NCBI GenBank assembly: GCA_020161265.1
Contig: JAIUOC010000001.1
Coordinates: forward strand, 1 to 64,000
Direction of reading: 5' to 3'
From: Chloroflexota bacterium
Lineage (GTDB): Bacteria; Chloroflexota; Chloroflexia; Chloroflexales; Herpetosiphonaceae
Length of the DNA stretch: 64,000 nt
Below, piece by piece: positions 21,901 to 39,171 of the stretch (position 1 is its first letter; each line of letters begins with the position of its first letter). The translations under genes and the position numbers were made by a program. The notes under the pieces are model-generated. The model made no database searches. It was not told where the DNA came from and saw only the letters and a program-made list of their open reading frames with translations.

Positions 21901-22769
21901 TGAGTTGGATTGCCAGCTATCAAGGCCAACTGCAGCAGGCTTGGCAAACCAGTCAAGCGGCGGTGGCGATCGCCCGTGAAGCCAATGATGCCCATAGTTT
22001 GGCCTTGGCACTGAAAACCCATGGCTATATGAATGTCTTACAAGGCCAATTTGCGCTTGCCGAGCAGCTATTTGCTGAAGGCCTCGGATTGCACCGCCAA
22101 CTCGGCCAGCGCGAAGATGAAGGCCGTATGCTGAATGTGATGGGTGAGGCTGCCCGCCATCGCGGCGATTTTCAGCATGCCGTCGAGCTGTATCAACAAG
22201 CCTTGGTCATTGGCCGCGAGTTGCGCAATCCTGAACGGTTAATCATGTTTTTGAGCAATTTGGGGGGGGCATTGGTGGGGCTTGGCACGTATGAAACCGC
22301 GATTGCCACCTTGAACGAGGCTTTTGAACTTGCGCGTTCGACCACGTGGTATGGGATCGCGGAAACCTATCGTTTTCGGGCTGAGGCTGCGATTGGCTTG
22401 GGCTATCCTGATGAGGCAATTCGCCATATTATCCAAGCGCATCATGCTGCTCGCGAACGCCAACAAACCCTCGAATTATGCGCTGCACTGCGGGTTTTGG
22501 GCAGTGCCTTGAGCCAATTGAATGCACCAATCCTCTTGCCACCAAGCTTGCCAACTACCCCACTGAGCTGCTTTGAACAGGCCTTGAGCATGGCCGAGGC
22601 TAGTGGTTCGCAAGCTGAGGTTGCTGCGATTCAGCTGGCCTTGGCCGAGCATTGGCAGCGTCAACAACAAACAACCAAAGCCCAAGCGGCTTGGCAGCAA
22701 GCGTATACAATCTATGGCCAATTGGGCATGGATGCGCTGCAACAACGGGTAGCCCAATATTTGAGCTAG
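18954..22769 (+). CDS. Double class III cyclase-AAA ATPase-TPR regulator
   Basis: 1271-aa cytoplasmic protein. Residues about 35-200 form a first class III nucleotide cyclase domain with FADIAGFTPLSE and FGGDAITALF. A second domain at about 255-400 has VTLLFVNFDAP, KVEIGDKGSSFLVLFGAP, GINTGFVFCG and the dimer-side IGDTVNLAARLM. Then follows a STAND/AAA ATPase with Walker A GEAGMGKS (472-479) and Walker B LLLVLEDCHWID (about 597). The rest is TPR (850-1250). The first domain keeps the metal Asp; the second lacks it at the matching place, so one half may be catalytic and the other regulatory. Cyclase-ATPase-TPR proteins of this form are abundant in Chloroflexota and actinobacteria. AGGAG is 8 bases before the start. 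Confidence 0.9.
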   Translation: MQARWFAYVPPYLVPRLLDQRASSATQTTKHGQAVVLFADIAGFTPLSEALGQHDSHGTETLTRLLNRCFAPLIDVIERFGGMISTFGGDAITALFPINQPQRTQRVAARAVRCALEMQSLMEQLGAIEIQATKWRLTLKIGIAAGHVLYTTVGDPTKRCVAVVGGSALLRSAEAENQARSGDVIIDYASLDCEQFKRETLDQRFAKVLGLEQSVRAQPIRWPEPITPHPPAQFDAYLHPTIAQQVREGRTAFINERRSVTLLFVNFDAPDYDRDPFAAERLNHYFREVLRIVERYDGYLNKVEIGDKGSSFLVLFGAPVAHENDSDRAAHCALELRALPEFEARIGINTGFVFCGLIGSERRQEYTVIGDTVNLAARLMQQASQGQILLTEATQETLSSTFLTAPLPAVRVKGRSELVELHELTDLRQTAIRGQEPIYALPMVGRSQELQSVGELLSSIKQGHGQVLGITGEAGMGKSRLVAEIRRIARAQRVAVYSGECLSYGTTISYLLWHNLWRSFFNVDPEWPLDLQMLQLRAQLALIDQDLLDWMPLLASALRLPIPDQSLTKLLDIKSRKMLLESLLVDCLRYRANETPLLLVLEDCHWIDSLSNDLLARITKAIRDVPVLIVLAYRPSAERDQTMWHELRQLEHWHEIELQEFTLEETAELVRLKIKQLLGNRQAPSEQLVSKLTDRAQGNPFYIEELINLVVERQPDLSDPKAVAQLDLPDSLHRLIISRIDQLEEATKHTLKVASVIGRLFKANWLWGAYPQLGSAEQVKQQLNTLSRMDLTPLDRDEPELEYLFKHVVTQEVAYQSLPLATRAALHEQVGDYLVETYGVEGAADLLAHHYGMSNNLDKRRNYFRKAGDAAAARYATDVALSYYERCLPLLEAHETLDIFFAMGEIYKHTGRWHEADAIYRRLLNQAQQQQQLSALARVWCEIADVQSSQGLHNDALQSIQPALEYAQQARDQRTHCKILMRMSWIASYQGQLQQAWQTSQAAVAIAREANDAHSLALALKTHGYMNVLQGQFALAEQLFAEGLGLHRQLGQREDEGRMLNVMGEAARHRGDFQHAVELYQQALVIGRELRNPERLIMFLSNLGGALVGLGTYETAIATLNEAFELARSTTWYGIAETYRFRAEAAIGLGYPDEAIRHIIQAHHAARERQQTLELCAALRVLGSALSQLNAPILLPPSLPTTPLSCFEQALSMAEASGSQAEVAAIQLALAEHWQRQQQTTKAQAAWQQAYTIYGQLGMDALQQRVAQYLS

Positions 22770-25132: not shown

Positions 25133-25199
25133 GATGTTAACCACAACAGCCGAGGCAAAACCTCGGCTGTTGGCTTTTAGCTCCAATATACTTATTCAG
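25133..25199. terminator. Duplicated terminator element (right copy)
   Basis: Stem caacagccgagg with cctcggctgttg around a 4-nt loop, T-rich tail. The block includes the stop codon of the surface protein gene (25192-25194) and matches the copy at 22779-22846 over about 67 bp. Confidence 0.85.
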
Positions 25200-26538
25200 C
25201 TGAACGAATTGCGATTGGTAAGAAGGCTCGCCATAGGCTTGGCGTGGGAGTATTGGTCGTGGTGCTGGTTGGCGTATTAGTTGGGCTACTGGTTGCGGTC
25301 GGGGTATTGGTCGGTGTGTTGGTCGGGGTATTGGTCGGTGTGTTGGTCGGGGTATTGGTCGGTGTGTTGGTTGGGGTGCTGGTTGCAGTATTGGTGGGGG
25401 TATTGCTGGGCGTAATGCTGGGGGTTGGGGTATCAGCAACCAACGAAGTGATCGCTAAAATAACTCCCCCAACAAAATACATATCGCTAGTGGAGCCAGT
25501 AGTTATGCTGGCTGTGGTTTGGCCTGGGCTAGTCCATGCTGAAACATCGAAGGTATCAAGGTCAAACCCACCCATACTGTTGGCTGCTCCGGTTAGTTGT
25601 GGCAAATCGCCTGTGGTTGAAACTGAATTACCTAAATAGGAGCGAGTGCTATTCATAACATTATCGGCAGGGTTTTGCGCATTGCTAACGCTATTGCCAT
25701 TAAACAGCAATTGGTCACCTGCGCTTGCATTATCGCCCTCGTAGCCAACAATTGTAAGGTTGGTTGTGCTGCTGCTGGGAATATTGAATCCACTCAATGT
25801 ATTGGTAATTGAGCCGCCAAGTAATACTTGATCCAGCCCATCGTGGAGAATGATCGTTCGATTAGGTTGGTTGGTATCGCTGTAAATTACTACTAGCCAC
25901 CAAGCGGCAAAAGCGTTGGTATCATTGGTGTTAATAAACGGATTGGCGAGAATCCCACTGGCACGATAGGCTCCTGAGCCATGCGTTTGAACATAGCTGG
26001 TAACATCTGCGACCGCTTGATAAAATGAATTTGGATTGATAACTGTACTGATTGGTGTGACGTTCTGGCTATTACCCCGATTAAATTCAAGCGTAGCACC
26101 AGTTGGTGTTACGCCACCCCAACGTGCTCCCCAATAGAAGTAAGCATGGGTTACGCTGGCCCCGACTGGAATATTGAGCATTGCACTACTGCGAGCCTGG
26201 GCATTATTGAGGCTGGTATTCGCTTCGGCTTGGCTGACAGCAGGCGAATCGGCCCGCCAATAAATGTCAACGCCTGAATCGCTCGTATTTGTGCCACATG
26301 CCCCGACTACGCCCACGACTGGGGCGGGAACGCCCGCCGCACAATCGTGGCTTAGCGTATTGCCAATCGTGATGACCCCGCCTCGTTGGGTCAGATTGAG
26401 CCGTGGTTCAATTGCTGGCACTCCTTCCATGGCCGCCGAAGGCTTGAGTAAACTACTCGTTAGCCCAAACGTACTAAGTAGCAACAAGCCGCCAATGAGC
26501 CGAATTAATCGATTTGATGAATATTGAGTTGCTTGCAT
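25192..26538 (-). CDS. Secreted surface protein with PTNT-repeat stalk and C-terminal hydrophobic tail
   Basis: 448 aa. A signal peptide with a hydrophobic core (LIGGLLLLSTFGL) sits near the N-terminus. The body is a Ser/Thr/Asn/Gly-rich beta domain with motifs such as HAYFYWGARWGG, VADVTSYV and AFAAWWLVVIY, similar to DUF3344-like extracellular domains (moderate guess). A stalk of 12-bp repeats encodes Pro-Thr-Asn-Thr units. The end LWRAFLPIAIRSAE is hydrophobic and may be a sorting or anchoring signal. The start at 26538 (AGGAG 8 bases upstream) is preferred over 26562. Confidence 0.75.
   Translation of the reverse strand: MQATQYSSNRLIRLIGGLLLLSTFGLTSSLLKPSAAMEGVPAIEPRLNLTQRGGVITIGNTLSHDCAAGVPAPVVGVVGACGTNTSDSGVDIYWRADSPAVSQAEANTSLNNAQARSSAMLNIPVGASVTHAYFYWGARWGGVTPTGATLEFNRGNSQNVTPISTVINPNSFYQAVADVTSYVQTHGSGAYRASGILANPFINTNDTNAFAAWWLVVIYSDTNQPNRTIILHDGLDQVLLGGSITNTLSGFNIPSSSTTNLTIVGYEGDNASAGDQLLFNGNSVSNAQNPADNVMNSTRSYLGNSVSTTGDLPQLTGAANSMGGFDLDTFDVSAWTSPGQTTASITTGSTSDMYFVGGVILAITSLVADTPTPSITPSNTPTNTATSTPTNTPTNTPTNTPTNTPTNTPTNTPTATSSPTNTPTSTTTNTPTPSLWRAFLPIAIRSAE
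25298..25369. repeat. 12-bp tandem repeat encoding PTNT stalk
   Basis: Alternating 12-mers gtcggggtattg and gtcggtgtgttg, three 24-bp pairs in perfect register, with degenerate copies flanking. They lie inside the surface protein gene and keep its frame. Confidence 0.9.
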
Positions 26539-26889
26539 CAACGAAACTCCTAATAGACCCAATATCTGGATAGCTAGTATCGCTTATTATGGCTCAAACG
26601 GTGATTAATTACCATAGCTCAGGTGAAATTTATGCCAAGCACGTTCACCTAAATCCTTGTCTATGGTGGGTTTTTCCATCACTAACAATCGGTCTTAAAT
26701 GAAAATATAGCAGCAAATAAACCAAAACCTGACAGGCAAAAATACGGATCAATATAACCCTGCTTGGGTAGCGCATGACCAGCAAGTGAAAATGCCTAGA
26801 CTGGCGGAGAAAAGTGGACGGGCTGTCCATATGGCCGATAAGCAAGAGGCTATGTGCTTGTTAACTGGTATCAAGCATATAGCCCCACT
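26539..26889. other. Intergenic region, 351 bp, no gene seen
   Basis: No convincing gene in this stretch: short frames lack ribosome sites and family features. It should hold the surface-protein promoter and the 3' end signals of the flippase operon, but I see no clear hairpin terminator or promoter match. Confidence 0.4.
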
Positions 26890-28164
26890 TTATCGCGGTG
26901 TCGTGGATGTATGGGGAAAGGATACTTGTATGATTGTTCTTCGGATTTCATCTATGATGAGTAGTCCAAGGAAACCGAGCATCACGGCGATTTGACCATA
27001 GACGATCTGAATAATGCTCTGATGCATCCAAGCAATCACGCCTATTTGGGTTATCCCTGCGATCATAGTTATCCATGCCCCAAACGACCGATCGTGGGCA
27101 AGTTGATAGGTAATGATAATATTGGCGAGCGCATAACAGCTTGTTGCAGCTCCATACAACCATAACACATTGGCCATTGGGAGATACGCTGCACCAAAGA
27201 GCCAGACAAGGATTAGCTCAGGAATCGCCTTACAGACAGCGGTGATGAGTCCCGAAATACCAACGGTTATCAGCATACTGTTCCAGAACAGTCGTTGTTG
27301 TTCCCGGGGGTGCGAGGACTGTAACACGCGCGGAAAGAGAATTGTGCCGATCGTGGCGGTGGCAAAAAACACAACCCGACCAATCAGGGCTAATGCGGCA
27401 TACTGTCCCGCACTATGTGCCGGAAACCATACTTTCACCAATAAGACATCACTATTATTAATAAAGACCTGTCCCAAAAGATGGATCATAATGGGAATCA
27501 GCGTGGTCATTTGTATGGCTTGCGTTGTTGCCAGAACCGCAGGAGCGGGCTGATATTTCCTCATACTGACCCATGCAAGGATAATCGAACTACTGAAGGC
27601 GATGGTAGCCCCAATCACCCCCATCCCCATCGTGACGAGCAGTAATGCTCCGATAAGCCGGATGCCCATCTCAAGTTGGAAATTCCAGGCTAGCCGTCCA
27701 AAACGGGTACATCCTTGCGCGATACCACGCTCAACCCCAAGGGCATAATAGCACGTTAACCCAATTCCTAAGATGATAAATGGAAGTGGACTTGCTGTCT
27801 GAAAGAGGGTTTGCCAAAAGGATGCAAAAAGCCCCAAACCAAAGAGACTGAGCCATCCGCACGCCCACGCAATACGCCGTAGCGTGGTGATCATATGCTG
27901 GTTATTTGCACCAACGATAGCACGTGCTGCTCCCATCTGTAGCCCGCTGGTAATAAAGGTTGCAACCAGAAAGAGGGTGACGATTAAATTAATTTCAGCA
28001 TAGGCCGCTGGTCCAAGCCACCGTCCCATGAAGACATTGAACCCATAATTTCCTGCATTGACCAGCATCATGCTGATAAAGAGCCAGAATCCGGGCCTTT
28101 TTGTGAATTGTGCACTGATGATGGTCGTGATCGATTGGTGCGTTGGTTGGGATACGATGTGCAT
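26890..28164 (-). CDS. Polysaccharide flippase (Wzx/MATE-like)
   Basis: Likely moves lipid-linked sugar units across the membrane. The 424 aa hold about 12-14 hydrophobic helices with few charged residues, including NAGNYGFNVFMGRWLGPAAYAE, the typical N-terminal pattern of the PST/Wzx family, and FINNSDVLLVKVWFPA in the middle, also typical. AAGGA lies 7 bases before the ATG. It is the last gene of a leftward set with STAS, kinase, phosphatase and glycosyltransferase genes. Confidence 0.88.
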   Translation of the reverse strand: MHIVSQPTHQSITTIISAQFTKRPGFWLFISMMLVNAGNYGFNVFMGRWLGPAAYAEINLIVTLFLVATFITSGLQMGAARAIVGANNQHMITTLRRIAWACGWLSLFGLGLFASFWQTLFQTASPLPFIILGIGLTCYYALGVERGIAQGCTRFGRLAWNFQLEMGIRLIGALLLVTMGMGVIGATIAFSSSIILAWVSMRKYQPAPAVLATTQAIQMTTLIPIMIHLLGQVFINNSDVLLVKVWFPAHSAGQYAALALIGRVVFFATATIGTILFPRVLQSSHPREQQRLFWNSMLITVGISGLITAVCKAIPELILVWLFGAAYLPMANVLWLYGAATSCYALANIIITYQLAHDRSFGAWITMIAGITQIGVIAWMHQSIIQIVYGQIAVMLGFLGLLIIDEIRRTIIQVSFPHTSTTPR

Positions 28165-28214
28165 AGGGCATCCTTAATATGGGTCATGGTTCGGTATCGT
28201 GGGTATGCGCGAAC

Positions 28215-28550
28215 CTACCAAATACATAGTGCCGATTCAAGCGATGGACTGCTGGTGAAAACGCGATCAAATTTGGTGAGACTCACAATGCGTCGTGCCG
28301 CCTCAGATGTTGGCCAAAGAACTCGGATATCACCAGCGTGTTCCCGAACACGTTTAAGCACATTAACTAAAGCGGCCATTCCCGCGCTATCGAAAAACGT
28401 GACCGCACTCAGATCAATCACAAGATAGTTCGTTTGAGCAAGAATCTGATCGGCTATTTGGCGAAAGGTTGCTACTGCGGCAATATCAAAGCGCTCACTG
28501 AGCGTTAAAATGCCAATATTAATTGCTTTAGTTTGACTCGTAATGCTCAT
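28215..28550 (-). CDS. STAS anti-sigma factor antagonist, first copy
   Basis: Partner-switching protein that binds an RsbW-type kinase when unphosphorylated. 111 aa with the STAS motif VIDLSAVTFFDSAGMAAL; Ser55 is the expected phosphorylation site. The fold follows SpoIIAA/RsbV. AGGAG lies 6 bases before the ATG. Its start overlaps the end of the kinase gene by 23 bp, so the two are translated as a unit and probably form the switch pair. Confidence 0.9.
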   Translation of the reverse strand: MSITSQTKAINIGILTLSERFDIAAVATFRQIADQILAQTNYLVIDLSAVTFFDSAGMAALVNVLKRVREHAGDIRVLWPTSEAARRIVSLTKFDRVFTSSPSLESALCIW

Positions 28551-28977
28551 GGGGTGCTCCTAATAATTTGATTAACTGCCAATGATTGCCGGTTGGAGTC
28601 CGACGATAATCAAGCGAATCTACAATTTGTTCGACAATAAATAACCCATAACCACCTTCTTGGCCATGCTCAAGATCGGGGAGCGTGCGTTGTTCAGCCA
28701 GAAATGGTCTACCCCAATCGTAAATATTAATTTCAAGTTGATTCGACAGGGGATGAAAATATACATTAATTGCAATTGAACCTTCATCGTCAGATGCATA
28801 AGCATGGGAGATAATATTGGTGCAAATTTCATGAATCGCCAGCTCGATGTTATAGATCGCCTGTGAATTTTGTTCAATCACCGGTAATGTTTGGAGAAAT
28901 CGACGGATCGCAGTATTAATATCTACGAGCAAATCGATTCTGGCTGCAATAACCATATTAACCATACAATGCCTCAT
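28528..28977 (-). CDS. RsbW/SpoIIAB-like serine kinase (anti-sigma type)
   Basis: GHKL-fold ATPase of the HATPase_c_2 group that phosphorylates a STAS partner. 149 aa. The N-box ELAIHEICTNIISHAY carries Glu50 and Asn54; the ATP lid region has YDWGRPF and EGGYGLFIV. The ATG overlaps the stop of the upstream phosphatase gene (ATGA). A second Met at residue 5 or 8 is possible. The usual partner sigma factor gene is not next to it, so its target may be a glycosyltransferase, a response protein or an unlinked sigma factor. Confidence 0.9.
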   Translation of the reverse strand: MRHCMVNMVIAARIDLLVDINTAIRRFLQTLPVIEQNSQAIYNIELAIHEICTNIISHAYASDDEGSIAINVYFHPLSNQLEINIYDWGRPFLAEQRTLPDLEHGQEGGYGLFIVEQIVDSLDYRRTPTGNHWQLIKLLGAPHEHYESN

Positions 28978-30461
28978 GAGTTGGTTTTTAATATAATCAT
29001 TGTTCGATCATCTTCTTGAACACACCCATTGCCAAAGGCCTCAACTTGCTGAAAGAACAGGTTGCATAAGGCTGGTGCTGATAATCCATGATGATGGGCT
29101 AGGAGCTGGCAGATTCGCTGATAGCCAAACATCTCTTGTTGTTGGTTGTGGGTCTCATTAAAACCATCAGTTGCTCCAATCAAAATATCGCCTGCATTCA
29201 GAATTTGGGCATGGCTACCAGCACAAAGTTGTGGTAATACACCAATTGGCGGGCAATCAGCTTCAAGCAACTGGGTTTGCTCGTTGCTATAGAGCAATAC
29301 AGGCGCATGGCCCGCATTGGCGTACCAAAGCATGTGGGTTTTGGGGTGATAAATCGCCACAAAAACAGTGATAAATACTCCAACGGTTGTTAAGTCGTCA
29401 TAAAGATCTATATTCATGCGTTCAAGAATTGCTGCCGGATCATGGGTTGCAAGGGCCGCAGTTCTTAGGGCAGTTCGACTCAGCATCATGAGTAATGCTG
29501 CTGCAACACCTTTCCCAACAACATCACCAACCATAATGGCAACGCTTCCATCAGGCCGCTGTAGGACATCATAGAAATCACCCCCGACGCTGCGAGCTGG
29601 CTTGGCATACGCAGTGAGTTCGATATCAGCAATCTGCGGCAGTGGTGTATTCAGGAGGCGTTGTTGGACACGTTGGGCTAAAGCGAGATCGGCCTCGATT
29701 TGGATTTTGGCCAAACTTTCTTGATAGAGCATCTGTTGTTCAAGATGATGACTAATGTGCTCACAAATCGCCTGAACAAATTTGATATCGGTTGCGCTGA
29801 ACTCACCTTCTTGATGACAAATACCGAGTCCACCAGCAATAATGACCGAACGAATGGTAATCGGGACCCATAAAAGATTGGTAACTCCTAAGGATTGACA
29901 AATCGGATCGTGGTGGCTAAACAGGGTCAGTTGGTTCGTTTTAATTGATTGAAGGAGTCCTTCCGAGATTGGCACAACCCCGTGGATAATGCTATGTTGG
30001 AATCCTAAGCCTGCGCCAAAACTGATCCAAGCATTGGTGGTTTTGGTTAAACGCACAACTTCGCGCATGAGCGATTGCATTAACGTTGGCAGATCTGCGG
30101 ATTGCCCCATCGAAGCCCAAATATCATATAACGTTATTAATTGATCTTGGCAATCGATTAATTCATCCGTTAATAACTGGACATTCTGCTGATACTGGAG
30201 GAGTGCTGCGAGTAATCCAGCATCAGTATTCAGTCGTTCTTGCCAGCCTGGTTGTTGACTACCAACAAGATGCAATTCACCAATAACCTGTCCATTGACA
30301 ATTAACGGCGATCGATAGCTAACGCTAGTGATGCTGCTCTGGGCCGGCCATAGGTGTTGGTATCGATCATCAATCCATACACCAAATGCCTGCATACCCG
30401 TTTTGATCCAAGCATGGGCAATGGTTTCAAAAGCTGGAATATGGTGTACGATCATTGTCAT
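28974..30461 (-). CDS. GAF-domain PP2C phosphatase (RsbU/SpoIIE type)
   Basis: Dephosphorylates the STAS antagonist to turn the switch on. Residues about 100-245 form a GAF-like sensor that reads a small ligand or redox/light cue. The PP2C domain follows: KPARSVGGDFYDV (Asp295, Asp298), VGDVVGKGVAAALLM (Asp313), YANAGHAPVLLY, LIGATDGFNE and CVQEDDRTMIIL. 495 aa, no membrane helices. The start is ATG at 30461 or two residues later. The stop overlaps the RsbW gene start by 4 bp. Confidence 0.93.
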   Translation of the reverse strand: MTMIVHHIPAFETIAHAWIKTGMQAFGVWIDDRYQHLWPAQSSITSVSYRSPLIVNGQVIGELHLVGSQQPGWQERLNTDAGLLAALLQYQQNVQLLTDELIDCQDQLITLYDIWASMGQSADLPTLMQSLMREVVRLTKTTNAWISFGAGLGFQHSIIHGVVPISEGLLQSIKTNQLTLFSHHDPICQSLGVTNLLWVPITIRSVIIAGGLGICHQEGEFSATDIKFVQAICEHISHHLEQQMLYQESLAKIQIEADLALAQRVQQRLLNTPLPQIADIELTAYAKPARSVGGDFYDVLQRPDGSVAIMVGDVVGKGVAAALLMMLSRTALRTAALATHDPAAILERMNIDLYDDLTTVGVFITVFVAIYHPKTHMLWYANAGHAPVLLYSNEQTQLLEADCPPIGVLPQLCAGSHAQILNAGDILIGATDGFNETHNQQQEMFGYQRICQLLAHHHGLSAPALCNLFFQQVEAFGNGCVQEDDRTMIILKTNS

Positions 30462-30476
30462 ACGTTTCTACTACCT

Positions 30477-30809
30477 TTAGGCTGGAACCTTTGCTAGCGC
30501 TTCATCAAGGCTGTTGGTCAGTGCTAAAACCCGATCAAGCCTCGTCAGTTCTAGAATAATTTGAACTGGCTGTTGTAAACCACAAATCTGTAGACTCCCG
30601 TTCAGCATGGACACCTGTTTGCTTAAGCGTACCATCCACGCTAAGGCTGCCGAATCGACAAAATTGACCCGACTTAGCTCCAAAATAATATGCGGCAGCG
30701 TTAGTGATGGTTGCCATGAGCGTAAGTGAATCAGACTATGGACATCAAAGCGGCCTTCAAGATAGAGAATTTCGGCTTGCTTGGCTGGGTTCACGTGTCG
30801 ATTGATCAT
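30477..30809 (-). CDS. STAS anti-sigma factor antagonist, second copy
   Basis: 110-aa STAS protein with IILELSRVNFVDSAALAWMV, Ser53 in the phosphorylation position. The start at 30809 is fixed by AGGAG five bases upstream and by the ATGA overlap with the stop of the glycosyltransferase gene; a longer start at 30881 would lie inside that gene. Having two STAS copies in one operon with one kinase suggests different outputs. Confidence 0.88.
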   Translation of the reverse strand: MINRHVNPAKQAEILYLEGRFDVHSLIHLRSWQPSLTLPHIILELSRVNFVDSAALAWMVRLSKQVSMLNGSLQICGLQQPVQIILELTRLDRVLALTNSLDEALAKVPA

Positions 30810-32032
30810 AAAAGCTCCTGTTGGAGATGGGTTATGATTGGGGTCAAGGGTCGTAACGTTTGCAAGTGTAAGAGATACCAATCAGCGACATCACTAATTG
30901 GCAAGCCACATGCCGCTGCATAATTTTGCAAACCCAAACGATGGCTGGTAGCGGGATCGAGCAAAAGCTGTTCTAAGGCTTGCGCAAGGCTGGTAACGTT
31001 TTCAGGCTCAAAAAAAACGCCAGTAAAGCCTTCTTCTTCCACGACATCGGCCAGATCACCAAGGTTTGGTAAGATTGCGGCGCGACCATATGAGCCTGTT
31101 TGATGCAAGACCCCTGAACTTCCGGTCGTACTGGTATAGGGAAAGACGACAGCGGTTGCCGATTGAAAGAGGTCTGCGACCGCAGCTTCGGGCACATAGC
31201 CGGTAAAACGAACATTCGGGATGTGCTGATACTGGCGCTGAACTGTTTCTAAGTAGCCAGTTGCATTGGGGCTATCTGATCCTGCAATTACTAATTCCAT
31301 CGGCTGCTGGTGTTTGGATTGAACCTGCGCAAAGGCTTCAATCAGGGTTTCCACCTTTTTATACGTGCCAAACTTGCCAAAGGCCAAAAATCGGCAGCAA
31401 TCGCTGGTTGGAGGGGTGGGTGGTGGTGGGGTTTCAAATGCTCCATGCGGTGCAAGGAGCACATTCGTTGCGCCATATCCATGCTCTAAAATATCGACAT
31501 AGCGCGGAATTGTGACGGCCACCAGATCAGCTCGTAAGAGTTGGCGAGTTATGATCCGTCCTGCCATCTTGGTCAGCCAATTGATGACGCGATTTCCAGC
31601 GAAGCCTGCTTGGTTAAGATCAACAGTCTCCATAATATTGTGCAGAAGAACGACACTCGGAATTGCTTTTTGGCGGACGAACGCTGGAGTTAACAGGGCG
31701 AGTGCTGCTGGAATCCGCCGATTGCCAAAGGTGGCAAACTGAAGATTAAACAGCACCGCATCGGGGTTAAGCGATTCAATCGCCCGCAGCAGCCGATAGG
31801 GGGTATCCCAGCGATTAAATGCCCAACAGCGGATAATTCGGAGCGGAATTCCATCAATCTGGTTTGGTAGTTCGACCTGATCTGAGGGAAGTTGATCGGC
31901 TAAAATAATCAGTTCCGCAAGGTCGCGTTTTTGTTGAAAAGCCCGCACAAAGTGCCATGCATATTCATTGAGCGTACCCGTGCTTGGTGGGAAGGTTGTT
32001 ACAATCACGAGCCTTAAGCTGGGGTTTGACAT
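30806..32032 (-). CDS. Glycosyltransferase family 4
   Basis: Retaining GT-B enzyme that adds a sugar to a growing polysaccharide repeat. 408 aa. The N-terminal domain starts LVIVTTFPPSTGTLNEYA (with a typical G-rich P1 loop). The C-terminal domain has FGKFGTYKKVETLIEAF and VVFPYTSTTGSSGVLHQTGSYGRA, which match the donor-binding region, although the second Glu of the usual EX7E motif is altered. It overlaps the STAS gene by 4 bp and the GT2 gene by 68 bp. Confidence 0.87.
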   Translation of the reverse strand: MSNPSLRLVIVTTFPPSTGTLNEYAWHFVRAFQQKRDLAELIILADQLPSDQVELPNQIDGIPLRIIRCWAFNRWDTPYRLLRAIESLNPDAVLFNLQFATFGNRRIPAALALLTPAFVRQKAIPSVVLLHNIMETVDLNQAGFAGNRVINWLTKMAGRIITRQLLRADLVAVTIPRYVDILEHGYGATNVLLAPHGAFETPPPPTPPTSDCCRFLAFGKFGTYKKVETLIEAFAQVQSKHQQPMELVIAGSDSPNATGYLETVQRQYQHIPNVRFTGYVPEAAVADLFQSATAVVFPYTSTTGSSGVLHQTGSYGRAAILPNLGDLADVVEEEGFTGVFFEPENVTSLAQALEQLLLDPATSHRLGLQNYAAACGLPISDVADWYLLHLQTLRPLTPIITHLQQELL

Positions 32033-32789
32033 AACGACCTCGTAGGTTATTAAATTGAATGGTCAGAATATCGCGGACAAAGCGGTAGGTATCGCGGATA
32101 GGATGGACTTTTGAACCCGGGGCATCAATCCATTCGACCGGAATTTCAATGGTTTGGTAGTGGTATTTTTTTGCGAGAAACAATAATTCAAGGTCAAAGG
32201 CAAAGCCGGGCATTGTTTGGAGCTGGGCTAAGTGTTTGGCAACACTCTGGTGAAAGACTTTGAAGCCACATTGACTATCAAGAACATCCAACTGTAAGCC
32301 ATAGTGGACGATGGCTCGTAAGGTTGCACTCATTACCCGGCGAATCAGATTCCGATGTTGGGTATCGGCGGCGGTGGTTGCCCGCGACCCAATCGCGAGA
32401 TCGTATGCCCCCGCTTCGAGCAGTGGCAACAGCTGATGAATCTGCTCAATCGGGGTTGAGTTATCAGCATCTGCAAAGAGAATAAAATCACCACGCGCAG
32501 CGAGGATGCCTTGCCGAACAGCATGACCTTTGCCACAGTTAGTGGGGGTTCGCAACACACTAAGGTTAGCAAAATGGAGTTCTTCAAGCAGGGCAACGGT
32601 CTGATCGGTTGAGCCATCATCGCTAATAATTAATTCCCATGGACGGCCTAGCGCACAAAAACAGGCAATAATCGCTCCGATAGTGGGTAAAATCCGTTCT
32701 TGTTCATTGAAACAGGGAATCACCACCGAGATATGGGGTGTTTCGGTAAGTGGCTCTGTTTTCCATAGGTCATAGCGTATGTCTGCCAT
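31965..32789 (-). CDS. Glycosyltransferase family 2 (polyprenyl-phosphate type)
   Basis: GT-A fold enzyme starting SVVIPCFNEQERI, with ISDDGSTDQTV and LFADADNSTPI as nucleotide and metal motifs. The C-terminal part has the acceptor-side CGFKVFHQSV and IEIPVEWIDAPGSKV typical of dolichyl-phosphate glucose or mannose synthases. 274 aa without membrane helices. First gene of the leftward operon, 197 bp from the divergent giant membrane gene, so both promoters lie in 32790-32985. The overlap with the next gene is unusually long (68 bp) but both reading frames look real. Confidence 0.88.
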   Translation of the reverse strand: MADIRYDLWKTEPLTETPHISVVIPCFNEQERILPTIGAIIACFCALGRPWELIISDDGSTDQTVALLEELHFANLSVLRTPTNCGKGHAVRQGILAARGDFILFADADNSTPIEQIHQLLPLLEAGAYDLAIGSRATTAADTQHRNLIRRVMSATLRAIVHYGLQLDVLDSQCGFKVFHQSVAKHLAQLQTMPGFAFDLELLFLAKKYHYQTIEIPVEWIDAPGSKVHPIRDTYRFVRDILTIQFNNLRGRYVKPQLKARDCNNLPTKHGYAQ

Positions 32790-32985: not shown

Positions 32986-35900
32986 ATGAGGTACAAGTGT
33001 ATGCAGCGTCGTGTTCCAATTAATCCCTATCTACTGACGGCCTTGATATTGGTGATTGCTTTTCATGGCATCTTGCTGGTATCAGGGAATTTTAAGCGCA
33101 CCTATGATGCCTATGTGCATATTTTTTTTGCGGATCACTATCGGCGAACGTGGTTTGATCATTGGGATTATCGTTGGTATACCGGCTTTCCGCTGATTAG
33201 CTATCCACCAGGCTCACAACAATCAATTGGGTTGTTGGGGATGGCGATTGGCTTACTGCCAGCGTTTGTGGTAGTGCAAGTAGCGGCATTGCTCAATTTA
33301 ACCCTCGGCATGTATCGGTTTGCCAAACTGTGGGTTTCGGAGGAAGCAGCAGGCTATGCTGCGCTATTAATTGTGTTCAGTTCGAGTATCTGCGAAACGG
33401 TGCATGTGTTTGGGCAGCTACCCACAACCTTTTCGTTGGGATTTTTGTTGAATACCCTGCCATTTGTCAAGCGCTGGTTAAGTCAGGGTGATTGGCGTGA
33501 TCTGATCCGAGCGTGGTTACTGCATGCAGCAACCACGGCGGGTCATCATGTGACCACATTATTTGGGGCAGTCTTTTTTGCTGGCCCAGTAATTCTGTTG
33601 GCGCTGGTTGAGGCATTTCGTCAGCCAAAAGCCGATGAGGATGTGCTGCATCCTGCTCAGATTAGCCGTTCGAATATTCGACCACTCATTGTTCGCCGCT
33701 TACGCCGAATTGCTCCGCCATTCATCCGCACGGCGATCTATGGGCCTGGCTTGATTGCGGCCTTGGTACTGGTGGTCTTACCCTATTGGCTCTGGAGTAG
33801 CAGCGATCCAATTAGCCAAGTGCCGATTCCGCATGCATCGCGAGACTCTTTTTTAGAAAATCCAAATGCAGGGATTGTCTTTTGGTTATTGCCCTATGGC
33901 TCGACCTTGTTGGTGCTGCCGTATCTCTTTTATAAAGGGTTTTTTAGTCGGGCATGGCCCATGGCGCTCTCGATTAGTCTGTTGTTTCTGCTTGGTACTG
34001 GCGGTACAACCCCGATTCCAAAGGCCTTGTTGGGTGGCGCGTTTGATATTTTAACCCTTGATCGCTTTACCTTTTGGGCAACAATTTTATTCACGCCCTT
34101 GCTTGGGGAATTTGTGGTGAGCATGCGCCGTGGCAACCTTGCGCGCTATCTGCGTGAACAATTCGGACGAAGCATGTGGCGCACGACCCAAGTTTGTTGT
34201 GTGTTGATATATGTTGGGGTGGCAGTGTTTACCTCAAACTTTACCCAATTCCGCCGCTTTCAGCCTGATCCGATTGATCCTGCGCCGTTAGTTGCCTTTC
34301 TTGAAAAAGATGAACATTGGCGCTGGCGCTATCTCATGCTGGGGTTTGGTGATCAGATGGCATGGGTCTCGGCGCAAACGACCGCGACGACGGTCGATGG
34401 CAATTATCATTCAGCCCGTCGCTTGCCAGAATTAACCACAACCCCAGTTGAGCGGCTTGAGGGAGCTAAATTCCGTGGGATTCCCGGGATTGGTTCGTTA
34501 CAGCAATTTTTGGCAGTTCCCGATAAATACAACCTCAAATATGTATTTTCCAATGATCAATTTTACGATCCGCTACTCTATTTTTCAGGTTGGCATCGGG
34601 TTCAACGCCTCGAAAACGGGTTGGTGGTGTGGGAACGGGAAGATATTCCACCCTTACCTGAGATCTTGCCTCGGCGGGAAATTCCCTGGTTTCAACGGAT
34701 TATGTGGGGAATAGTGCCACCTACCGCCCTAGGCTTAGGAATTTTGGCCTTGAGTGCGGGCCTATGGGGACCACGCCTGCGACGGATGCTTCGGCCATTG
34801 TTGCCGCCTCGTATTCCAATCATTCCCTATGAACGCTGGTGGCATACGTTTGATCAATTGCTTAAACGTTGGTCAGTTGTGCCAGCTACTAACGATCAAC
34901 GCCGAACGCGTTGGCAAATTTGGCGGACTTTGTGGCAAAAGCTACCAAAGCTTAAGCCTGCTCCGCCATCGGCATATGCAGTTCGAAATGGATTACTAGG
35001 CTTGATTCTGCTTGCTGGAGCTTTTACCAGCTGGCGGCATTATACTCAAGTGCAACAAAGCCCCGAAACTGTTGTCTTGGCATATTACGATGATCTTGAT
35101 TTTCGACGGTTTTCAGCAGCTTATGCCCGGCTTGATCCACAAACCCGCCCGACCTATGACCAATATCTACTTGAACTTTCAGTTCAAGGGGGCTTAGTGG
35201 CTTCATATGGCAAATTAGATTCGGTCATTGTTAACGATTTGGGGGGTGACCAAACAACACGGATCGTCGATGTAGAAACACGCTGGGTCACGGCACTCAA
35301 CGAATACCCAACCAGAGAACGGTTGATCTTGGTTAAGCGTGATGGTCAATGGTATATCCCGACTGCCAAAGTAGATGTACGGGTTCCGCCTGATACATTT
35401 ATTCGACAAGCTGCGATTGATTGGTTTGCGGCTGGACGACGACGAGTCACCACGACGATAACCTCGTTTGCTGATGTCCAAGATCGGCCTAAACTTTCTG
35501 TCCTTTCATCGCGATTGGTTTCCTATCAAGGGCGTACTAGTATTGTTGGCGAGGTGTTGAATCTCGATGTTGATCCCGCTGATCTGACCGTAACTGGAAT
35601 CCTCTTTGATGAGAACGATCGAGAACTGACCCGCTATAATGCCCAATCGGTGATCAATCATAAGATTTTGCCGAAAGAAGTAACTCCCTTTCGAATTGAC
35701 TTTGAAGGAGTAGCTGGGGCGGTGCTGAGCGATACATTAACCGCTGGCGAATTCAACCCCAATGCATTCTCACCAGTATCCTTCACCTCACCAATTGACC
35801 ATTTTACGGTCTACGCCAAAGCAGTTGTGACCAATCGCGATCTTAATCGGGGGTTAGCAGTGCAAGATGTTATTGTAACTGCGGATGCAGAACAGCAGCA

Positions 35901-36231
35901 GATTCACTTGACTGCGATCAATAATGGTACGGAAGAAGCCACTATTCCGCATATTTTGCTAACCTATTACGATGCAAATGGTGACGTGGCATGGGTTGAT
36001 CACGCTTTTGTGGCAAGTTCGATTCGTCCGCAACGCTCAACAGCGGTAAGTATTCCCATTATTCCTGTATCAGCAATTCAGATTATTAAAACTGATGGCG
36101 ATACGGTGGTCAACGCCTTGGTTGAAGCAGGGATTCCTGATGCTGAGCCGAGCTATCTTTTAAGCTTGCCTGCAACAACAGGTTATGCTGCGGTTCGCAT
36201 CAGTATTCATGGCTATTTTGCGGAGAATTGA
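32986..36231 (+). CDS. Large GT-C-like membrane glycosyltransferase with C-terminal beta domains
   Basis: 1081 aa. The first 590 residues hold about 10-12 helices. The start has RTYDAYVHIFFADHY (Asp41, His45) and TGFPLISYPPGSQQS, the pattern of membrane proteins of the PTPS-related/GT-C kind, which use lipid-linked donors. After a further helix (about 665-685) the rest is extracellular: a region resembling DUF4440/SnoaL-type folds (YYDDLDFRRFSAAYARLDP) and then two Ig-like or FxLD-type domains. Start at 32986 has GAGAGGA. The exact sugar or protein acceptor cannot be told. It shares a divergent promoter region with the operon to its left. Confidence 0.7.
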   Translation: MRYKCMQRRVPINPYLLTALILVIAFHGILLVSGNFKRTYDAYVHIFFADHYRRTWFDHWDYRWYTGFPLISYPPGSQQSIGLLGMAIGLLPAFVVVQVAALLNLTLGMYRFAKLWVSEEAAGYAALLIVFSSSICETVHVFGQLPTTFSLGFLLNTLPFVKRWLSQGDWRDLIRAWLLHAATTAGHHVTTLFGAVFFAGPVILLALVEAFRQPKADEDVLHPAQISRSNIRPLIVRRLRRIAPPFIRTAIYGPGLIAALVLVVLPYWLWSSSDPISQVPIPHASRDSFLENPNAGIVFWLLPYGSTLLVLPYLFYKGFFSRAWPMALSISLLFLLGTGGTTPIPKALLGGAFDILTLDRFTFWATILFTPLLGEFVVSMRRGNLARYLREQFGRSMWRTTQVCCVLIYVGVAVFTSNFTQFRRFQPDPIDPAPLVAFLEKDEHWRWRYLMLGFGDQMAWVSAQTTATTVDGNYHSARRLPELTTTPVERLEGAKFRGIPGIGSLQQFLAVPDKYNLKYVFSNDQFYDPLLYFSGWHRVQRLENGLVVWEREDIPPLPEILPRREIPWFQRIMWGIVPPTALGLGILALSAGLWGPRLRRMLRPLLPPRIPIIPYERWWHTFDQLLKRWSVVPATNDQRRTRWQIWRTLWQKLPKLKPAPPSAYAVRNGLLGLILLAGAFTSWRHYTQVQQSPETVVLAYYDDLDFRRFSAAYARLDPQTRPTYDQYLLELSVQGGLVASYGKLDSVIVNDLGGDQTTRIVDVETRWVTALNEYPTRERLILVKRDGQWYIPTAKVDVRVPPDTFIRQAAIDWFAAGRRRVTTTITSFADVQDRPKLSVLSSRLVSYQGRTSIVGEVLNLDVDPADLTVTGILFDENDRELTRYNAQSVINHKILPKEVTPFRIDFEGVAGAVLSDTLTAGEFNPNAFSPVSFTSPIDHFTVYAKAVVTNRDLNRGLAVQDVIVTADAEQQQIHLTAINNGTEEATIPHILLTYYDANGDVAWVDHAFVASSIRPQRSTAVSIPIIPVSAIQIIKTDGDTVVNALVEAGIPDAEPSYLLSLPATTGYAAVRISIHGYFAEN

Positions 36232-36233
36232 TC

Positions 36234-37454
36234 ATGCGCTGGATGCTACTCCTGCTTAGCGCTTGCTGGTTCATCGCCTGTCAACCGCAACAAGCGCCTC
36301 TATCGGCTCCAACTCGGATCACGATTGGCGTGGCTCCAACTAGTGTGGTTGGAGCTGATCTCCCAATTTTGCTTGAGGTTGAGTCAAACTGGAATGGCCT
36401 TGTGACCCTCACAATACAAACAAGTTATGCCGTGCATAGTCAAGCAGTAACGATTGTGAATGGGCAAGCAACAACCTCCTTGATTTCCCCATGGAATGAG
36501 CAACGTGGTGATGTGACGATCGTCGCCCAGGTAGGCCAAGTACAGGCTCGCGCGACAACCAGTTTGCAGCCAGGAATGGTGGTTGAACCACTTCGCCCTT
36601 TAGTTGGGGCACGTTCGATTATTGCTAATGGTGCAACCTGGAGTATGGTTGTGGTGATTCCCCATGATCAATTTGGCAACCCGATTGCTGATGCCTCGGC
36701 GGTAGATATTACAGCTCAACGCCCAAATCAACAGCTAACGCGACTTACGGCCAAGACCGCCCATCTCCTAGCCTGGCAACGACTTTACAGTCAAACCGTT
36801 GCTGGAAAAACATTGATTAGTACCACAAGCCAAGACCGACTTGGGCCTCAAGCCGAGTTGCTTGAAGTTGCTGGTTGGCCAGTCGATATCAGTGTTCAGC
36901 TTGGTCAGTTACCAACCTGGATTAGCGCTGATGGAAATAGCTTTATTCCGATTCAAACAAACCTTATTCGCGACGCATTTGGCAATGTGATGCCCGATGG
37001 TACAAGCGTAGTATTTGAGGTTAATGATGGGACTGGTCTGAAACGGATGATCAATAGTGTGACGATTCGGGGCGTTGCCGAAGCCCAAATTCTATCACCC
37101 AATCAAGCAACCACCTTGACGATCCAAGCGCGCATTTTTCGGGTATCCAGCGAGCCACTTATAGTTGATGTTCCGCCGAATGGTGGGTTTGATTTTGCGT
37201 TGCAGGCAGTGGTTGCGACCGATGTAATTAGCATTACCGCAGGGCCAATTAGTGGGAGTTTACAGCAATATGTTCCCGATGGGACGATTGCAGTCCTACA
37301 AGTCACTGGACCCACAAGGTTTGAACAAACGAGCGATGTTGTGGCGGGTTATATCCAAACGACGATCAGGCGATCGTTGTTGCCAGCAGGTCGTTATACC
37401 CTGATCTGCCGGGTTGGCGATAAACAAGCCAAATTATTGCTGGTAATTCCTTGA
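36234..37454 (+). CDS. Lipoprotein with Ig-like/invasin-type repeats
   Basis: 406 aa. The N-terminus MRWMLLLLSACWFIAC carries a lipobox with Cys16 as the lipid-anchored residue. The mature part consists of beta-sandwich Ig-like repeats (for example IPHDQFGNPIADASAVDITA, LIRDAFGNVMPDGTSVVFEV), typical of invasin/intimin-like domains. The start at 36234 has GGAG 8 bases upstream; a TTG at 36228 is the longer alternative. It follows the large GT-C-like gene by 2 bp and precedes the GH5-like gene by 10 bp, so these three form one operon. A role in surface attachment or complex with the glycosyltransferase is inferred. Confidence 0.78.
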   Translation: MRWMLLLLSACWFIACQPQQAPLSAPTRITIGVAPTSVVGADLPILLEVESNWNGLVTLTIQTSYAVHSQAVTIVNGQATTSLISPWNEQRGDVTIVAQVGQVQARATTSLQPGMVVEPLRPLVGARSIIANGATWSMVVVIPHDQFGNPIADASAVDITAQRPNQQLTRLTAKTAHLLAWQRLYSQTVAGKTLISTTSQDRLGPQAELLEVAGWPVDISVQLGQLPTWISADGNSFIPIQTNLIRDAFGNVMPDGTSVVFEVNDGTGLKRMINSVTIRGVAEAQILSPNQATTLTIQARIFRVSSEPLIVDVPPNGGFDFALQAVVATDVISITAGPISGSLQQYVPDGTIAVLQVTGPTRFEQTSDVVAGYIQTTIRRSLLPAGRYTLICRVGDKQAKLLLVIP

Positions 37455-37464
37455 TACAAATGAG

Positions 37465-39171
37465 ATGTGGTTCATGAGTCAGCGGCGCTTCAAAATTATT
37501 ATATGGCTCTTCTTTTTGCTCATCCTTGGTCAATGTGGCTGGTGGGGTGTTGGTCAAGTTGCGCGGCTTGTCGCTAGCTTCCAGCAAGGTGCCGACCCTG
37601 CTAGTGCCCTAAAATTGCCACCCATGTTGCCACCTGAAGCCGCAAGCGCGACCCAGTGGCTGCCTGACGACCCCGACACTGGTCGCGTGATGGAAGATTT
37701 TACTCGCCAACAACTGACCAGCGATTATGGTCGGGCGTGGCTCCAATGGAATCTTTCCTTGAAGATTGGCCGCCCCTACAATTTACGCACTAGTTTTAGT
37801 GGACCAGCCTTGCATTATCTTACGACAAGCATCAGTGCAACTGCCAATCTCCAGATAGACCAAATTGATACAGCGCACCAATTACAACTGCATTTCTATG
37901 CAGCAGATGGCTCTATTGTAGCAATGACCGATACCCAAGCCGAGGTCTACCAGATAATCTATGATGCTAACGGGAAAATCGTATCGGCCCAATGGCTCTA
38001 TGCGCGATATGAGATTGTGCTGCTGTTGCAAGATGGCACATGGCGAATTCGGCATTGGGTGCGCCATGAACTGCCAACCCCTCTAGAACCATCGTATCAA
38101 CCAAAGCCGCAACTTTTGCAGGTTAATCAGCAACAGTTACAACTTCACGATCAGGCTTTTATCGCGCGAGGCGTTAATTATTATCCTTCTAAAGCTCCAT
38201 GGCTACAATTTTGGCCTGGCTATCAACCTCAACAAACAACAACAGATCTCGCGTTAGTTCAACAACTAAACTTGAATAGTGTGCGGATTTTCATTCCGTT
38301 TGAACAATTTACCGAACCCTATAGTACAAGCCTTTATCTCCGTTCCGTGACCGATTTTCTGGATCAGGCTGATCAAGCGAACATCAAGGTCATCGTCACC
38401 TTATTCGATTTTTTAGGCGATTATCAACTGGCCCGTTGGCAACAAACCGATAGCTATTTAACAACTGTGGTGACTGCATTAAAGGAACACCCAGCTATTA
38501 TGGCCTGGGATGTAAAAAATGAACCAGATCGCGATTATGCGACTGCTAGTCAAATAGTGGTTGAGGCATGGCTCCAGCATAGCATCCGCCAGCTTCGTCG
38601 GCTTGATCCACATCATCTGATTACGATTGGCTGGTCTACGCCTGAAGCTGCTGAACGGTTATATCAAGATGTTGATTTGGTCTCGTTTCATTACTATGGA
38701 TCAACTGAACTGTTGGCAACCCACTATCAACGCCTCAGGCAGATAGTTGGCGAGAAACCGCTCCTGCTAACTGAGATTGGGTTGCCAACCTGGAATAGCC
38801 CATTTTTTCCTCATGGCCACAGCCAGCGTGAGCAAGCAAACTACTTAACGGGATTAATCCAGCAAGCCGAAGCCTATAATGGTTTTTTGATCTGGACACT
38901 CTTTGATATTCCTGAGGTTCCAAGCACAATCGCTGGATTTTGGCCATGGCAACGTGGCCCGCAAACCCAATTAGGACTCTATACTGAGACCTATGAACCA
39001 AAATTAATCAGCAAAGTGTTGTTAGGGCTTGAGCCTGTCCCGTTTATTCGCTGGTGGGAGGCGTGGCTCAAGCCGTTTCGAATAACGCTGATTACGCTAA
39101 GCATGCTTGGATTAATCGGAGGATGGAGATTCTTTCGCCGCAGGAAACGCAAAAAACGCCTAAAGGTTTAG
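37465..39171 (+). CDS. Membrane-anchored GH5/cellulase-fold glycosidase
   Basis: 568 aa with an N-terminal membrane helix (about 10-30), a beta domain similar to a SnoaL/NTF2 fold at 75-210, and a TIM-barrel glycosidase (215-530). The acid/base Glu353 sits in WDVKNEPD and the nucleophile Glu437 in LLTEIGLP, the GH5/GH-A clan layout. A second membrane helix (about 545-560) and a strongly basic tail follow. It probably acts on polysaccharide outside the cell while held in the membrane at both ends. Start is ATG at 37465; 37474 is also possible. It belongs to the operon with the lipoprotein and the GT-C-like gene. Confidence 0.82.
   Translation: MWFMSQRRFKIIIWLFFLLILGQCGWWGVGQVARLVASFQQGADPASALKLPPMLPPEAASATQWLPDDPDTGRVMEDFTRQQLTSDYGRAWLQWNLSLKIGRPYNLRTSFSGPALHYLTTSISATANLQIDQIDTAHQLQLHFYAADGSIVAMTDTQAEVYQIIYDANGKIVSAQWLYARYEIVLLLQDGTWRIRHWVRHELPTPLEPSYQPKPQLLQVNQQQLQLHDQAFIARGVNYYPSKAPWLQFWPGYQPQQTTTDLALVQQLNLNSVRIFIPFEQFTEPYSTSLYLRSVTDFLDQADQANIKVIVTLFDFLGDYQLARWQQTDSYLTTVVTALKEHPAIMAWDVKNEPDRDYATASQIVVEAWLQHSIRQLRRLDPHHLITIGWSTPEAAERLYQDVDLVSFHYYGSTELLATHYQRLRQIVGEKPLLLTEIGLPTWNSPFFPHGHSQREQANYLTGLIQQAEAYNGFLIWTLFDIPEVPSTIAGFWPWQRGPQTQLGLYTETYEPKLISKVLLGLEPVPFIRWWEAWLKPFRITLITLSMLGLIGGWRFFRRRKRKKRLKV

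Follow-up and report, generated by a model that had tools for sequence, protein, structure and literature searches.

A partner-switching cassette among lipid-linked glycan genes in a Chloroflexota bacterium and its relatives

Gene content of the operon

We analysed a 64,000-nucleotide (nt) stretch of a Herpetosiphonaceae genome (Chloroflexota bacterium, assembly GCA_020161265.1, contig JAIUOC010000001.1, positions 1 to 64,000; hereafter the window), in which the genes of a partner-switching module (two STAS proteins, a PP2C-type phosphatase and an RsbW-like kinase) lie among genes for two glycosyltransferases and a flippase. The seven genes run on the minus strand from 32789 to 26890 in the following order:

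31965..32789, minus strand: GT2 glycosyltransferase of the dolichol/polyprenyl-phosphate sugar synthase type (Pfam PF00535, E 6e-29)
30806..32032, minus strand: GT4 glycosyltransferase (Pfam PF13692, E 5.5e-21)
30477..30809, minus strand: STAS1, a single-domain protein with predicted phosphoacceptor Ser53 (Pfam STAS)
28974..30461, minus strand: GAF-SpoIIE (PP2C-type) serine phosphatase (Pfam SpoIIE, E 1e-48; GAF_2, 6.9e-6)
28528..28977, minus strand: RsbW-like serine kinase (HATPase_c_2; Pfam E 6.5e-23; PDB RsbW 6m36, E 1.7e-7)
28215..28550, minus strand: STAS2, a single-domain protein with predicted phosphoacceptor Ser55 (Pfam STAS, E 2e-16)
26890..28164, minus strand: MOP-superfamily (Wzx/MurJ-like) flippase (AlphaFold2 and Foldseek; homologues match Polysacc_synt)

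An earlier reading made without database searches (the sequence-only reading) had described these genes in this leftward order, joined by ATGA overlaps or short gaps, and all of them were found where it had placed them. GT2 and GT4 overlap by 68 nt, GT4 and STAS1 by an ATGA, the phosphatase and the kinase by another ATGA, and the kinase and STAS2 by 23 nt, while 15 nt separate STAS1 from the phosphatase and 50 nt STAS2 from the flippase. The automatic list of open reading frames starts STAS1 at a TTG at 30881; the ATG at 30809 gives the ATGA overlap with GT4. The overlaps and the gaps of 15 and 50 nt fit a single transcript, and a scan of the locus for promoters and terminators returned sites no more numerous than in shuffles.

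The best NCBIfam match of GT2 was PpgS (7e-21, under the family cut-off), and its match to the PDB dolichol-P-mannose synthase 5mlz had an E-value of 1.5e-13. GT4 is 52-55% identical to its counterparts in other Chloroflexota families. The flippase itself had no match in Pfam or NCBIfam; its AlphaFold2 model, computed from a 36-sequence alignment, reached a predicted local distance difference test score (pLDDT) of 90.3 and was matched by Foldseek to WzxE (TM 0.70/0.73) and MurJ (0.71), so that the operon has the MOP-superfamily flippase of a Wzx/Wzy locus. Neither an initiating sugar-phosphate transferase nor a Wzy polymerase was found among the scanned neighbours (a subset of the window's genes, from about 14.5 to 42 kb), which include an unassigned 1081-residue membrane protein described below. 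Assembly and flipping of a lipid-linked glycan therefore describes the locus better than the term polysaccharide biosynthesis operon of the sequence-only reading, if that is taken to mean a complete one.

An intact phospho-switch with no linked sigma factor

The residues on which partner switching depends are in place. Ser53 of STAS1 and Ser55 of STAS2, which the sequence-only reading had picked as candidate phosphosites, both sit in the expected D-S-A motif. The serine is kept in 31 of 31 STAS2 orthologues and in 30 of 31 STAS1 orthologues, the remaining one having Thr. The N-box Glu and Asn of the kinase are present in 32 of 32 orthologues, and the metal-ligand Asp residues of the phosphatase are kept in all aligned rows that cover them. 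The module therefore has the three enzymatic parts of an RsbU/RsbV/RsbW-type system: STAS proteins with a phosphorylatable Ser, a kinase with N-box Glu/Asn and G boxes, and a PP2C phosphatase with its metal-ligand Asp residues.

Switches of the RsbW type normally free sigma factors. Of the 30 Sigma70_r2 matches in the genome, none falls in the window, and the closest one on this contig is at 138.9 kb, about 107 kb from the operon. Hidden Markov models (HMMs) trained on 20 sigma factors of this genome, all 20 of which they recovered, detected no sigma gene in the window or in the Chloroflexota and Actinomycetota loci retrieved with GT4 (L065 onward in our numbering of loci). The few matches they gave came from three loci in Bacteroidota (L110, L118, L123) and from the outer ends of three paralogous loci not of the GT4 type (L036, L040, L043). 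The earlier statement that no sigma factor accompanies the module thus extends to the retrieved GT4 loci of Chloroflexota and Actinomycetota. Since the enzymatic RsbUVW parts are present and a linked sigma factor for the kinase is not, the module is set apart from the sigma-controlling kind of partner switch.

Linkage across genomes and fusions to sugar enzymes

To follow the linkage outside the window, genome contigs were searched with a GT4-only alignment, and the best 80 of the 346 relatives obtained were retained; as the alignment was built from module-linked GT4s, the top matches are enriched for module-linked cases. At 36 Chloroflexota GT4 loci, spanning Chloroflexia, Anaerolineae, Caldilineaceae and Thermoflexales, we counted genes within a few kb on the same strand and found STAS at 35, GT2 at 35, PP2C at 33, RsbW at 29, a receiver protein at 26 and a flippase at 25, several loci being cut by contig ends. 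Two named Herpetosiphon genomes have the same operon (GT4 83-90% identical), which places the window in Herpetosiphon. With the phosphatase as query, full-length relatives turned up in further families of the order, and their neighbourhoods are of two types: type A, the operon of the window, and type B, a paralogous cassette of STAS, PP2C, RsbW and receiver genes. Of 61 Chloroflexales genomes, counting that of the window and 60 relatives, 10 have a GT4 orthologue, and the type-A phosphatase adjoins it in all 10.

Gene order is less stable than the linkage. Two Cryobacterium genomes (Actinomycetota) have GT4-flippase-GT2-STAS-PP2C-RsbW-STAS-receiver, followed by a member of the 1081-residue membrane protein family described below (L116, checked with Pfam), and in L087 and L088 the flippase sits between the STAS genes. 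With the window and L070, where receiver and PP2C are fused, this makes at least four arrangements, and the linkage outlives the order. The Bacteroidota version keeps STAS, flippase and GT4 with no kinase/phosphatase pair nearby. The interleaving of regulators and sugar genes, which had been suggested as something to look for in related genomes, thus survives rearrangement in 10 of 10 GT4-bearing Chloroflexales, most Chloroflexota loci and Cryobacterium, and for this reason the GT4-regulator linkage is beyond chance across genomes, not within one genome.

An argument from chance adjacency within the genome of the window was dropped: random placement of its 52 STAS and 55 GT4 domains would already give about 1.4 close pairs. 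Two other sites in this genome were set aside, one with PP2C, RsbW and glycosyltransferase genes (C3:394-402 kb), where the phosphatase is a different one, the neighbours are of chemotaxis type and gaps separate regulators from glycosyltransferases, and a WecG gene (C2:461374) with GAF-STAS proteins downstream, where there is no fusion and unrelated genes lie between.

In relatives, switch domains are joined covalently to sugar-handling proteins. Flippases of the same operon type carry two N-terminal RsbW-like domains in L067 (6835-8910), L075 (14364-16451) and L091 (14427-16487), each as a single open frame (Pfam HATPase_c_2, E 4e-12 to 4e-18; Polysacc_synt, E 2e-8 to 1e-12). The L075 and L091 proteins are about 81% and 46% identical to that of L067, so the fusion is present in at least two lineages and a single assembly error is unlikely. 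In the AlphaFold model of the L067 protein (pLDDT 84, with lower values in its N-terminal portion), mixed alpha/beta domains precede a MOP transporter. At type B loci, a WecG/TagA/CpsF transferase (WecG, E about 1e-64) bears two C-terminal STAS domains (E 1e-24 to 1e-31); we found this WecG-STAS-STAS protein in 16 genomes of the order, beside the STAS-PP2C-RsbW-receiver cassette and a sugar-phosphate transferase. Bacteroidota have receiver-GT2 fusions near GT4-flippase genes at 13 loci, three of them verified with Pfam. L035 and L048 encode GT2 and GT4 as one protein, and a phosphatase-kinase fusion occurs in L089.

Other domain fusions were seen at these loci. Flippases with an N-terminal polysaccharide pyruvyl-transferase-like domain are encoded in L073 (9745-12408) and L094 (15890-18370), both verified with Pfam, and in L077 (9854-12829), recognised by sequence likeness only. 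Beside WecG-STAS-STAS in L033 (10922-12634, minus strand) lies a 571-residue fusion of a nucleotidyltransferase and a bacterial sugar-phosphate transferase, and other type B loci have homologues of about its length.

On the plus strand, divergent from the operon, lies a gene that the sequence-only reading had left out of its gene set, followed by two more:

32986..36231, plus strand: 1081-residue multi-domain membrane protein, the divergent partner gene
36228..37454, plus strand: Big_1/Invasin-like domain protein (Pfam Big_1, Invasin_D3)
37465..39171, plus strand: glycoside-hydrolase TIM-barrel protein (Pfam Cellulase, 1.4e-10; Glyco_hydro_2_C, 1.7e-6)

The membrane protein gave no match in Pfam, NCBIfam or the PDB, including a PDB profile search, and our guess is that it may be a GT-C type transferase. 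Proteins 39-45% identical to it occur in Bacteroidota and Actinomycetota, and in a Tenacibaculum locus (L126) the three genes stand in the same order as in the window. Among the 61 Chloroflexales genomes it is found in exactly the same 10 as GT4, in some of them about 20 kb from the GT4 operon or on a different contig, and three of six Herpetosiphon genomes lack GT4, the membrane protein and the type-A phosphatase all together. This co-occurrence is the pattern of one functional unit, to which the membrane protein belongs, with events that are non-independent through shared ancestry.

Further along the window, a 456-residue secreted-looking protein with a Thr/Pro-rich stalk (25192-26562, minus strand; no Pfam or NCBIfam match) follows the flippase, and a 1271-residue protein with guanylate/adenylate cyclase, AAA ATPase and TPR repeats is encoded at 18954-22769 on the plus strand. 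Two Bacteroidota loci, L126 (2205-6107) and L084 (1862-5595), encode a haem-NO-binding (HNOB) protein upstream of STAS, flippase and GT4; in L126 a histidine kinase, an Hpt-like protein and a LytTR regulator (Pfam) come after it. This neighbourhood suggests that nitric oxide or oxygen sensing may feed the Bacteroidota glycan system.

Proposed direct control of the glycan machinery and its alternatives

We consider it probable, from sequence evidence, that the products of the operon assemble and translocate a lipid-linked glycan under post-translational gating, with the STAS proteins contacting the flippase and/or the glycosyltransferases directly. The RsbW-like kinase would phosphorylate STAS1 at Ser53 and STAS2 at Ser55 and so keep both off their targets; on a signal sensed by the GAF domain, the attached PP2C phosphatase would dephosphorylate them, and the dephosphorylated STAS proteins would then attach to the flippase and/or the glycosyltransferases and switch them. 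The most likely pairing, at the level of a guess, would place STAS2 at the flippase and STAS1 at GT2/GT4, and activation by the dephosphorylated form, as for SypA of Vibrio fischeri, would be a simpler guess than inhibition. We infer the phosphorylation, the binding, the direction of the effect and the STAS-enzyme pairing; the direct observations are the gene content, the intact switch residues, the linkage through rearrangements, the shared presence and absence, and the covalent fusions in relatives. The fusions are the strongest evidence: as RsbW-like, STAS and receiver domains are each joined to a different sugar-handling protein, direct contact appears likelier than control through a distant sigma factor. 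The direct control of a glycosyltransferase or flippase proposed by the sequence-only reading thus gains strong indirect support from the RsbW-flippase, STAS-WecG and receiver-GT2 proteins, the contact itself being an extrapolation from them. A broader proposal, for which we see the chances as evenly balanced, is that flippase, GT4, GT2 and the 1081-residue protein may form one glycan-export system shared across phyla, with the partner-switch proteins as part of the machine: STAS would dock on the flippase and glycosyltransferases, phosphorylation would toggle flipping, and the RsbW fold would have been reused as a docking domain of the flippase.

Several observations weigh against direct control. 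The RsbW-flippase fusion is rare, with one case in 400 sampled Chloroflexota genomes besides L075 and L091, and the fusions occur in relatives, none in Herpetosiphon. By eye, the fused RsbW-like domains look split or degenerate: the G2 box alone survives in the first and the N-box alone in the second, so that the pair may resemble a docking unit more than a normal kinase. Vertical descent confounds the tree-distance correlations of regulators with sugar genes too strongly for STAS-enzyme pairs to be named from them, and one striking pair weakened once Herpetosiphon was removed. A regulator with its target elsewhere would account for membership of the operon just as well. In Bacteroidota, the STAS protein next to the flippase often lacks the phosphoacceptor Ser (the one in L126 has a weak Pfam score) and no kinase or phosphatase lies nearby. 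The frequent lack of Ser there suggests that STAS contact with the sugar machinery may be the older property, around which the phospho-switch was gained or lost; otherwise, STAS may be partly structural.

That last option can be taken further, with the STAS proteins as constant structural subunits of the export machinery, in the manner of MlaB, a subunit of the Mla ABC transporter, and phosphorylation as a minor or recent addition. A sub-threshold MlaB match of STAS1 (E 1.4e-9) and the Bacteroidota STAS genes beside flippase and GT4 are in its favour; the near-complete retention of both serines in Chloroflexota and Cryobacterium, with kinase and phosphatase active sites intact, argues against it, and we regard it as improbable. 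Slightly less so, though still unlikely, is a classical switch acting in trans, in which the kinase would be an anti-sigma factor for one of the roughly 30 sigma factors encoded elsewhere and the operon part of the regulon. The 30 Sigma70_r2 matches leave room for this, and kinase, STAS and phosphatase are typical of the RsbW, RsbV and SpoIIE families; such a switch leaves the three kinds of fusion unexplained, and no sigma gene is linked at the Chloroflexota and Actinomycetota GT4 loci. We give least credence to a switch whose target is some other effector, for instance the receiver protein or a neighbouring hybrid histidine kinase, and which would reach the sugar genes only indirectly. A receiver does accompany the cassette in 26 of the 36 Chloroflexota loci, and a large receiver/kinase protein is encoded downstream at several of them, yet the Herpetosiphon operons (window, L065, L066) have none, so that the receiver cannot be the essential target there.

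Among known systems, SypA/SypE and HmpU/HmpV/HmpW are the nearest biological analogues. The Syp locus of V. fischeri likewise places a single STAS protein with a phosphorylated Ser, under opposing kinase and PP2C activities, in a polysaccharide locus, with no sign of SypA acting on a sigma factor (PMC4517449), and the window shares with it a STAS gene in a glycan locus without a sigma factor. The sequence-only reading had cited SypE/SypA as a case of control by protein contact; the target of SypA is undefined (PMC4517449, PMC8256260), and Syp serves here as an analogy. SypE is also a single multi-domain response regulator containing both kinase and phosphatase domains, whereas the window has separate kinase and phosphatase genes, two STAS proteins and a GAF sensor, and the fusions in its relatives point to flippase and glycosyltransferases. 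In Nostoc punctiforme, the PP2C, STAS and RsbW-like proteins HmpU, HmpV and HmpW control hormogonium development and polysaccharide, the STAS output acting on an undefined effector (PMC6495340, PMC8256260); the descriptions cited mention neither interleaving with glycosyltransferase and flippase genes nor fusions to sugar enzymes. A precedent for output by binding is SiaABCD of Pseudomonas aeruginosa, where SiaC, a small protein controlled by a phosphatase and a kinase, binds and activates the enzyme SiaD (PMC8457831), and the window phosphatase has a weak match to SiaA. That output, unlike ours, is a diguanylate cyclase, and SiaC is reported to be controlled by threonine phosphorylation (PMC7647112). 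The Bacillus RsbU/RsbV/RsbW and SpoIIE/SpoIIAA/SpoIIAB systems comprise the same three protein families with intact active-site residues and differ from the window in its lack of a linked sigma factor, its two STAS genes and its sugar-enzyme context. Anabaena all4160 joins STAS to a glycosyltransferase required for heterocyst envelope polysaccharide (PMC8256260); its STAS is N-terminal, whereas the Chloroflexales WecG has two C-terminal STAS domains and stands beside a full kinase/phosphatase cassette. A search of an open-access library, which by its scope is weak evidence of novelty, turned up no account of this operon or of the flippase-RsbW and WecG-STAS-STAS fusions.

The fusions name concrete candidate partners (flippase, WecG and GT2) for single-STAS outputs such as SypA and HmpV. 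If the proposal is right, the 1081-residue membrane protein, which belongs to no known family, would add a new component to glycan export, and partner switching would gate a lipid-linked-glycan flippase or its glycosyltransferases, giving fast control of biofilm and envelope without transcription.

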